Assembly (NCBI RefSeq): GCF_016863295.1
Contig: NZ_BOOP01000021.1
Location: forward strand, 62,001-126,000
Origin: Planotetraspora phitsanulokensis
GTDB taxonomy: Bacteria; Actinomycetota; Actinomycetes; Streptosporangiales; Streptosporangiaceae
Direction of reading: 5' to 3'
DNA length: 64,000 bases
Part shown: positions 19,603 through 21,629 of the stretch, piece after piece
Layout: the number at the start of each line of letters is the position of its first letter
Position numbering within the stretch: position 1 is the stretch's first letter
Translations under genes and position numbers: made by a program
The notes under the pieces: model-generated
Seen by the model: the letters and a program-made list of their open reading frames with translations, nothing else
Database searches by the model: none
What the model was told of the DNA's origin: nothing

Positions 19603-20196
19603 ATGCGCATCGTGATCGTCGAGTTCATCAGCTTGGACGGCGTCGTGCAGGCGCCCGGCGGACCGAATGAGGACACCGACGGCGGCTTCGCCCACGGCGG
19701 CTGGTCACACCCGTTCTTCGACCCGGACATCGCGGGCGGCGCCTTCGACGGCGCGATGACGAACGCCCAGGCGCTGCTGTTCGGACGCCGCACGTGGCAG
19801 ACGATGGCCGCGGCATGGCCCGGCCGGGCCGGCGACCCGTTCGCCGACCAGATGAACGCCATCCCGAAGTACGTCGTGTCCGAGACGCTGGGCGACGGCG
19901 ACCTGACGTGGAACACCACGCGCATCCCCGGTGGCGAGGCCGTCGCCCGCATCCGGAAGCTGCACGAGACCGAAGGCGGCGACCTGGTGGTCATGGGAAG
20001 CCCCACGCTCGGCCGCGCCCTCCTCAGCGAGGGCCTGGTCGACGAACTCCGGCTCGTGATCATGCCCGTGATCCTCGGGGGCGGAAAGACGATCTTCCCT
20101 GATGACGGTTCGCGGTCCACGTTCGAACTGGTCTCCACGGTCACCAGCGGCGCGGGCGTGAACCTCTGCGTCTACCGCAGGGCCGCCGAGAAGTAG
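19603..20196 (+). CDS. Dihydrofolate reductase-like (RibD C-terminal domain) protein
   Basis: A 197-residue protein of the RibD_C/DHFR-like family: 'MRIVIVEFISLDGVVQAPGG', the 'ALLFGRRTWQTM' core, the nucleotide-binding 'GDLVVMGSPTLGRALL' and 'VDELRLVIMPVILGGGKTIF'. ATG 19603 follows a CGGAGGAG site. Such stand-alone proteins are NADPH-dependent reductases of unknown substrate; they are not needed for folate synthesis. A second family member is encoded at 43859-44446. Confidence 0.87.
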   Translation: MRIVIVEFISLDGVVQAPGGPNEDTDGGFAHGGWSHPFFDPDIAGGAFDGAMTNAQALLFGRRTWQTMAAAWPGRAGDPFADQMNAIPKYVVSETLGDGDLTWNTTRIPGGEAVARIRKLHETEGGDLVVMGSPTLGRALLSEGLVDELRLVIMPVILGGGKTIFPDDGSRSTFELVSTVTSGAGVNLCVYRRAAEK

Positions 20197-20336
20197 GCCG
20201 GGCCGGTGCGGGACGACGGCCGGATCGGGAGGCTCGACGGAGGCCGGAGGATCGCGCGCCAGAGTGATCCCCCGGGGGCTCCAGGAGAACCCCCCGATAG
20301 ACTGGCCGGGAGCGGTCACCCTTCCGGAGGTCGCGC

Positions 20337-20433
20337 GGCGGTGGGGCCCGCCGTACCCGAACCGCGGCGAATCGCGCCGCCAACGGTCCCTACCTGGTGA
20401 CGAACGCGCCTGCGTGCGCACACGGGTAGGAGG
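20337..20433 (+). promoter_or_regulatory. Fluoride riboswitch (crcB motif) with RBS-sequestering platform
   Basis: The aptamer (20337-20394) shows every element of the crcB RNA. A pseudoknot forms between GGCG (20337-20340) and CGCC (20349-20352). P1 pairs 20343-20348 with 20385-20390. A 6-bp P3 pairs 20364-20369 with 20375-20380 around a 5-nt loop. The conserved CCUAC end is present. The usual GAUG/UGAUG positions read GGUG and CAACG, a covarying-looking variant. The P1 3' strand CCUACC (20389-20394) is also complementary to GGUAGG (20425-20430), which overlaps the AGGAGG ribosome site of crcB. Fluoride binding would free the site (inference). Confidence 0.78.
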
Positions 20434-20440
20434 TATGCGG

Positions 20441-20911
20441 ATGGAAGCGCCCCAGTCTGAGCCGATCGACTCCGATGTCGACTTCGCGGTCCCGTTGTGG
20501 CGGCGAGACCTGTGGCAGGGTCAGGGGCCGGTGGTCTTCGTGGTCGCGGTGGGCGGCGCCATCGGAGCGTGCGCCCGCTACGGGGCGTCACTGTTGTGGC
20601 CCGCCCTCACCGGCGCGTTTCCCTGGGCCACGCTGCTGGTCAATCTCAGCGGCTGCGTGATCATCGGCGTCTTCATGGTGACGATCACGGAGTTGTGGAC
20701 GGCGCACCGGCTGGTGCGCCCGTTCGTCGGCACCGGGATCCTGGGCGGTTACACCACCTTCTCCACGTACGCCGTCGACATCCAGCGGCTGGTGAACTCC
20801 GGGCACGCGGGCACGGGGCTCGCCTATCTGATGTTGACGCTGGTCACCGCCTTGGCCGGAGTCTGGGCGGCCGCCAGGCTGACACGCCTGCTGATCGGAT
20901 GGAGGGCATGA
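20441..20911 (+). CDS. crcB: Fluoride channel CrcB/Fluc, first subunit
   Basis: A 156-residue protein of the Fluc family, which exports fluoride through a dual-topology dimer in the cytoplasmic membrane. Four TM helices are visible. '[13 protein letters not shown]', '[14 protein letters not shown]' (the conserved pore Asn) and '[17 protein letters not shown]' (central Na+ site and Phe box) are diagnostic. The roughly 30-residue N-terminal polar extension is longer than usual. ATG 20441 is 7 bp from AGGAGG; the ATG at 20435 is too close. It is the first gene of a three-gene operon behind a fluoride riboswitch. Confidence 0.92.
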
Positions 20912-21258
20912 TGACCGCTTTGACCGGGACGGCGCTGCGGCTGACCATCTTCATCGGGGAAAGCGACCTGTGGCATCACAAGCCGCTGTCGAGTGAGATC
21001 GTGCACCGCGCACACAAGGCGGGTCTCGCCGGAGTGAGCGTGTTCCGCGGGGTGGAGGGATACGGAGCCTCCTCACGGATCCACACCGCGCGGTTGTTGT
21101 CGCTGAGCGAGGATCTTCCGCTGTGCATCGTCATGGTGGACGCCGCCGAGCGGATCCGTGCGTTCCTGCCCCAACTCGACGAACTGGTCGGTGAGGGGCT
21201 GGCGATCCTGGACGAGGTCGAGGTCGTCCGTCATGCGATCAGGGCGGCCGCTCGGTGA
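20908..21258 (+). CDS. DUF190 protein (CrcB-associated)
   Basis: A 116-residue cytosolic DUF190 protein: '[20 protein letters not shown]', '[19 protein letters not shown]' and '[20 protein letters not shown]', the PII-like ferredoxin-fold signature. It overlaps the upstream crcB stop by ATGA and the downstream crcB start by GTGA, so all three genes are translationally coupled. DUF190 is commonly encoded between or beside crcB pairs. A regulatory role on the channel by analogy with PII is inference. Confidence 0.88.
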
Positions 21259-21629
21259 ACTGGCTGCTGGTCATCGCCGGCGCGGTGGTGGGCGCACCCT
21301 TGCGGTACCTCACGGACCGGGCCGTCCAGGTCAGGCACGACACCGTCTTCCCGTGGGGGACCTTCACCGTCAACGTCGTCGGCTGCCTGATCCTCGGCGT
21401 GCTGACGGGCGCAGTGGCCGCGGGCGCCGCCCCGTCCTCTGTGCAACTGCTGGTGGGCACCGGGCTGTGCGGAGCGCTGACCACCTATTCGACGTTCTCG
21501 TACGAGACGCTGCGGTTGGTCGAGACGGGAGCACGGTTCTTCGCCGTCGCCAACGTCGTCGCCAGCGTGGTCGCCGGTCTCGGAGCGGCGTTCGTCGGCG
21601 CCGCGGTGGCGCGAGCCGTCTGGGGATAG
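21255..21629 (+). CDS. crcB: Fluoride channel CrcB/Fluc, second subunit
   Basis: A 124-residue, four-TM Fluc protein. It has '[15 protein letters not shown]', '[16 protein letters not shown]' (pore Asn) and '[17 protein letters not shown]'. The GTG start overlaps the DUF190 stop. Two crcB genes in one operon usually encode a heterodimer, in which the antiparallel dual topology is fixed by the two different subunits. It completes the fluoride-resistance operon. Confidence 0.92.

Follow-up and report, generated by a model that had tools for sequence, protein, structure and literature searches.

According to the available excerpts of the papers cited here, the structure of the fluoride aptamer of T. 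petrophila contains A6.U38 as a reversed Watson-Crick pair and A40.U48, the linchpin, as a reversed Hoogsteen pair (PMC11586693, PMC10687018), and the exchange U41A abolishes switching in B. cereus (PMC11077080). The genes reported in such excerpts as targets of fluoride riboswitches include mutS, formate hydrogenlyase, enolase and pyrophosphatase (PMC2864571, PMC11139923).

In the window, the whole stretch of 64,000 nucleotides from Planotetraspora phitsanulokensis analysed here, the leader of a crcB/fluC gene (20441..20911, + strand; PF02537, 89.6 bits) was very probably a fluoride-responsive ON switch acting on translation, with an aptamer of a variant type. The gene was followed by a DUF190 gene (20911..21258, +; PF02641, 128.4 bits), the start of which overlapped the crcB stop, and by a second crcB/fluC gene (21255..21629, +; PF02537, 97.4 bits), giving the order crcB-DUF190-crcB, a fluoride-tolerance context, 3' of the leader. 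The 5' neighbour was a RibD_C-domain gene ending at 20196. A putative -10-like hexamer, TAGACT (20298..20303, +), would place the transcript start near 20310; in 141 leaders, the interval -60..-30 relative to the aptamer contained 92 TANNNT motifs, versus 16 in single-base shuffles. The Shine-Dalgarno (SD) sequence AGGAGG (20428..20433, +) was separated by 7 nt from the ATG at 20441.

The crcB-type fluoride aptamer fold occupied 20337-20393, with positions numbered after the T. petrophila aptamer. P1 was formed by GGCG (20337..20340, +) and CGCC (20349..20352, +), between which lay G6 and U7 (20341..20342, +) and the 5' pseudoknot strand GGGGCC (20343..20348, +). The latter paired with GGUCCC (20385..20390, +) in six pairs, one of them G.U. 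P3 was the hairpin GCGGCG/CGCCGC (20364..20380, +), with arms 20364-20369 and 20375-20380 and the loop 20370-20374. C38 A39 A40 C41 (20381..20384, +) replaced the canonical U38 G39 A40 U41, with C38 opposite G6, which is A6 in canonical aptamers, and U48 A49 C50 (20391..20393, +) provided in U48 the linchpin partner of A40 (20383). Compared with T. petrophila, the core thus carried A6->G, U38->C, G39->A and U41->C with the linchpin retained, and the window read GGUG...CAACG where the canonical form reads GAUG...UGAUG. An earlier note on this DNA had drawn the fold with letters, coordinates and pairs that were all exact; the pairs of GGCG/CGCC, 20343-20348/20385-20390 and P3 were kept, while its labels of P1 and pseudoknot were swapped relative to published usage as found in the available excerpts. 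A minimum free energy (MFE) pairing of CCG 20357-20359 with CGG 20384-20386 was dismissed, being disrupted in orthologues (CAACAGUCCC and CCCAACC forms), and the leader as a whole had an unremarkable fold energy (z -1.05), which is no evidence either way.

A protein scan with crcB gave 345 relatives, the best 80 of which were used, mostly from Streptomyces and otherwise from Planotetraspora, Actinomadura, Actinacidiphila and Streptantibioticus. The element was present at 61 of these 80 orthologous crcB loci and was not found at the other 19; a wider set (L009-L118) had it at 82 of 110 loci, 21 of these outside L009-L088. The orthologous leaders shared the core GGCG-GU-GGGGCY-CGCC, a junction mostly ending in AACC, P3, and CAAC-RGUCCC-U[AG]C, which was near-invariant in Streptomyces. 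In L042 and L068, two of the 19 loci counted as lacking the element, a decayed form was seen no more than 200 bases 5' of the crcB match, where P1 with its loop and the SD were present and most else was gone. By eye, an extra hairpin between P1 and P3 was noticed in the crcB-type variants L095, L097, L100, L102 and L108.

Covariation was counted in 91 distinct aptamers, aligned with a model that contained P1 and P3 and was blind to the pseudoknot, 6.38 and 40.48. A 17-pair structure including the pseudoknot and tertiary pairs was paired in 97.4% of cells (P1 99.5%, P3 92.7%, pseudoknot 99.6%), with double changes present. These numbered 149, versus 37.5±11.9 in 500 shuffles that ignored relatedness (none reached the observed value), and at most 43 when the 17-pair structure was slid. 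P1 pairs were replaced by UA, GC and AU among relatives, two-sided changes occurred at each of the five P3 pairs counted, and the pseudoknot pair 13.42 was CG in 96, UA in 25 and UG in 19 of 142 distinct variant sequences. A40.U48 was kept in all 91 aligned rows and in 140 of the 142 variants.

The pair 6.38 was G.C in 44, A.U in 43, G.U in one and another combination in three of the 91 aligned aptamers. It was G.C in 139 of the 142 sequences, a set whose first 75 members were chosen by a motif favouring G6 and the others by a model built on those 75. Canonical aptamers, variants and those of islands, 246 in all, were also parsed with a score blind to positions 6, 38, 39 and 41. The parse succeeded for 239 (seven were unparsed) and gave G.C in 160, A.U in 71 and another combination in eight, of which about four were mis-registered. 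Its canonical set held 52 of 58 RF01734 matches in the phylum, taken from among the matches listed, with L152, L154, L159, L165 and L166 left out as low and chance-like and L151 as a variant. All combinations with position 41 existed (A.U with U41 or C41, G.C with C41 or U41), and the 6.38 exchange is independent of that position.

The earlier note had read the core changes together as compensating. For A6->G with U38->C this agreed with the comparison, in which 6.38 is kept as a pair, A.U or G.C, by compensatory change. G39->A was dropped from the compensation and is not diagnostic of the variant, since four of the 48 canonical aptamers that could be parsed had A39 too. U41->C stands apart and has no compensating change; C41 occurred in the window and in 137 of the 142 variants. 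U7->A was considered as a mark of genes other than crcB and dropped, since the crcB leaders L094, L223 and L226 carried it too. The natural exchange of A6.U38 and G6.C38 supports, from evolution, a tertiary pair that had otherwise been seen in structures. The natural mutants, in which the pair and positions 39, 41 and 7 vary separately, form a set for testing what the anion site needs. One point against the reading as a fluoride switch is that U41, whose exchange for A abolishes switching in B. cereus according to the available excerpt (PMC11077080), is C in the window.

By the covariance-model search that the earlier note had proposed as a check, its observation would nearly fail. The window element aligned end to end with RF01734 at 21.2 bits (E 0.0012 for 401 bases), below the gathering cut-off of 34 bits of the model as curated in Rfam, and Rfam at gathering threshold gave no match across the window. 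The best match among those listed for the same genome was L001 (24.2 bits), which lacked P3 and was judged to be chance as a fluoride aptamer; the window element was absent from the RF01734 matches of its own genome, where 150 of 1185 candidates were scored. Because L001, probably a product of chance, scored higher, the Rfam score alone is not evidence, and the case for an aptamer rests on comparison instead. The other check, comparison of the same leader in relatives, bore the observation out: it stands despite the weak Rfam score because orthologues carry the element, with helices and anti-SD pairing covarying. At 18 other G6.C38 loci, cmscan with RF01734 reported five (18.8 to 32.5 bits) and left 13 unreported at E up to 1. 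In the phylum, RF01734 matched in 89 of 396 genomes, 68 above the cut-off; only three of the 89 belonged to the class, and one of these (L151) was the variant.

A covariance model based on 75 sequences, the window's among them, gave 114 matches in 96 of 394 class genomes (E up to 0.01). At 35 bits or more, the variant had 72 matches in 65 of the 394 genomes and 19 families; 17 of the 42 matches below 35 bits were inspected and all 42 were treated as chance. Exceptions among the 72 at 6.38 were L189 (G.U), L240 (A.U) and L247 (A.C), and L231 was deranged at P1. Over 396 phylum genomes the model matched in 13 at E up to 1e-4, nine of them in the class. Among the four matches outside it, L270 and L271 were canonical and also found by RF01734, L271 being the same canonical element as L148, and L272 and L273 looked like chance. 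A second model over 200 genomes of the window's family matched in 84; these were inspected in part, and canonical aptamers were also picked up. The variant is therefore neither rare nor local, being widespread in actinobacteria. The Rfam threshold thus misses an RNA regulator that often precedes crcB in Streptomyces and its relatives, which leaves their fluoride response under-annotated.

A crcB operon lay 3' of 59 of the 72 survey matches, L187, L188 and L212 among them, and the remaining 13 preceded other genes or contig ends. The former were genes for a dynamin-like GTPase (L222, L246), enolase (L215), pyrophosphatase (L240, whose element was mixed, A6.U38 with C41), MFS (L213, L233), NUDIX (L247, with A6, C38 and U41, and 35.1 bits with RF01734) and PPE (L245); L229, L237 and L241 were without gene-family assignment, and L178 and L179 stood at contig ends. 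Outside the survey, a dynamin-like GTPase gene followed the variant in L096, L098, L101 and L112, which served as profile seeds. PF00350 was present in all five dynamin-like genes scanned (L101, L321, L329, L330, L332), and the other loci were assigned by the profile or as its seeds.

Several genomes of the window's family contained islands with three to eight aptamers within 10-17 kb (L321, L322, L323, L324, L326, L327, L328, L329); in L321, 11.8 kb contained eight, including two weak ones. The islands combined canonical (A6/UGAU), mixed (A6/UGAC) and variant (G6/CAAC) aptamers, and in several cases two divergent aptamers lay in a common intergenic region. Canonical island aptamers preceded NADHdh, MutS and Usp genes, and G6.C38 aptamers lay before HTH genes, dynamin-like genes and, in the case of L330, an enolase gene; YaaH, NUDIX, MFS and Complex1/Proton_antipo_M genes lay within the same islands. 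Dynamin-like genes were located directly after variants at L321:2739-4568, L329:13970-15703, L330:2025-3740 and L332:3-1733, and a DUF4129 membrane-protein gene directly after a variant at L103:557-1477 (identical in genome position to L327:955-1875). Within a single genus of family f6, variants were found before the PPE-family gene (L245:301-360, +) and before the unassigned gene of L241 (2201-2258, -), both with a weak anti-SD helix.

Because variants preceded enolase and dynamin-like genes and shared islands with canonical aptamers, and because mutS, enolase and pyrophosphatase, seen among the island and target genes, are reported for fluoride riboswitches, fluoride is taken as the likely ligand of the variant. 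The G6.C38/C41 aptamers might even be a separate fluoride-sensing subclass with another threshold or metal-fluoride preference. Islands, in which up to about eight switches of this and the canonical kind coexist, would then serve to read a single stress at several levels, and dynamin-like GTPases would take part in the fluoride response; this we regard as a doubtful extension. Both the multi-switch islands and the dynamin-like GTPase genes as targets suggest that fluoride tolerance has parts yet to be studied.

The same fold could instead bind another ligand, the G6/C38/C41 core having shifted to another anion or metal-fluoride complex that induces crcB. The core did differ in concert, G6.C38 occurring with A39 and C41 in 128 of the 142 sequences, and some variants preceded dynamin-like GTPase, PPE and HTH genes, for which we know of no fluoride link. 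This alternative is nevertheless improbable, as fluoride-exporter operons made up 59 of the 72 survey targets, and islands were common to both kinds of aptamer. Moreover, according to the available excerpts it is backbone phosphates and water that hold the Mg-fluoride cluster (PMC8752731, PMC11586693), and enolase, a variant target, is among the genes reported for fluoride riboswitches (PMC11139923).

The strand CCUACCUG (20389..20396, +), containing C46, C47 and U48 of the aptamer, paired in the unconstrained MFE fold of the leader with CGGGUAGG (20423..20430, +), which overlapped the SD. Since the anti-SD strand opens with C46 and C47 of the pseudoknot and U48 of the linchpin, the two structures are mutually exclusive, and the leader thus has what marks a translational riboswitch, an alternative helix masking the SD. 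The earlier note had proposed that CCUACC (20389-20394) pairs either in the helix it labelled P1 or with GGUAGG (20425-20430), overlapping AGGAGG (20428-20433), which was confirmed and covaried. In most Streptomyces the helix was CCUACUUGC/GCGAGUAGG, and others had CCUGCGUG/CACGCAGG, CCUAUCAGU/GCUGAUAGG, CCUAUCUCG/CGAGAUAGG or CCUGGUC/GACCAGG.

At least 8 consecutive base pairs adjoining the SD core were present in 56 of 57 distinct leaders of crcB orthologues and in 98 of 142 distinct leaders overall, versus a mean of 2.8 and a maximum of 10 leaders after shuffling positions 49-55 (300 trials, relatedness ignored). Re-pairing was done on 130 leaders; 5 of 142 had no assignable SD, and 5 of the other 137 had too short an SD region. 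At least 7 bp were found in 23 of 53 distinct combinations versus 6.8±2.1 in 5000 re-pairings, and in a register fixed by the SD at least 6 pairs in 27 of 49 combinations versus 13.6±2.1 when re-paired, both counts ignoring relatedness. Seventeen fully paired forms (G.U allowed) existed, such as ACUUG/CGAGU, GCGUG/CACGC and AUCAG/CUGAU. Adjoining the SD core, 44 of the 142 leaders had no 8 bp and 26 no 6 bp; the leaders with fewer than 6 pairs included L096 and L222, both before dynamin-like genes. A few leaders short of 8 bp paired just beyond the searched core (L216, 8 bp), and others were unpaired (L055).

When P1 and P3 were forced, with the pseudoknot and linchpin strands left free of pairing, the probability of being unpaired rose at 20428-20430 from at most 1% to 77, 24 and 21%; at 20432-20433, where it had been 0.10 for each base, it became 0.16 and 0.03, and these bases stayed paired. 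The energy model, which can score neither the pseudoknot nor fluoride, thus opens the SD only in part. We infer that the switch is turned ON by fluoride and that translation is the controlled step. Without fluoride, CCUACCUG (20389-20396) would pair with CGGGUAGG (20423-20430) and mask the SD. Once Mg2+ and fluoride are present, the aptamer would lock through its pseudoknot (20343-20348/20385-20390) and its linchpin (A40.U48, 20383/20391), and C46, C47 and U48 would no longer be available to the anti-SD helix, so that the ribosome could start crcB, and DUF190 and the second crcB would be translated through the overlapping genes. In this variant type, G6.C38 stands in for the reversed Watson-Crick pair A6.U38 and C for U41. 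The earlier note had read the mechanism directly from the sequence; its translational switch was supported by the comparative data, and its fluoride-stabilised P1 gave way to the pseudoknot and linchpin as what excludes the anti-SD helix.

Transcription termination instead of SD masking is the mode of the well-studied B. cereus and T. petrophila fluoride switches (PMC11077080, available excerpt), but here it is quite unlikely, somewhat more so than another ligand. The competing hairpin (20389-20430) was followed by AGGU and had no U run, its 3' arm overlapped the SD and covaried, and nearly no transcriptional ones were found in Actinomycetota when 1901 Rfam fluoride riboswitches were tested, as far as the available excerpt reports (PMC13273304). 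That the leader is no riboswitch, only a conserved protein-binding or structural leader resembling an aptamer by chance, would suit the Rfam score under the cut-off and the near-invariant Streptomyces sequence, but is highly improbable given that the pseudoknot, the 6.38 pair and the anti-SD helix covaried and that canonical aptamers and fluoride genes coexisted with variants.

The variant aptamer and the dynamin link were not found in titles and abstract starts on fluoride riboswitches, crcB, Streptomyces, Actinomycetota and dynamin, a comparison outside which the original riboswitch descriptions of 2012 lie. A review (PMC11139923), in its available excerpt, mentions extensive riboswitch regulation in S. 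cattleya, citing a 2012 paper, on account of which the variant may be partly known already. The leader belongs to a known kind of riboswitch, of which the variant appears new, though part of it may be known.

With the RF01734 crcB motif, the variant shared P1, the six-pair loop-tail pseudoknot, P3, the linchpin A40.U48, the AACC at the junction end and the position before crcB. It differed in G6.C38 for A6.U38, C41 for U41 and mostly A39, and the variant crcB leaders had a longer junction, GUACCCGAACC. In P. syringae and B. pseudomallei, the fluoride riboswitches have a canonical aptamer core, unlike the variant. Like the variant as proposed here, they are translational, with no terminator function and with ribosome access controlled, according to the available excerpt (PMC13273304). 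For the 6.38 exchange, and for this only, an analogy is offered by another RNA, the Levitt pair of tRNA. It is G15.C48 in tRNA numbering and has an A.U counterpart. Like 6.38, it joins distant bases in reversed Watson-Crick geometry and occurs as G.C, as described in the excerpt available (PMC3902895).
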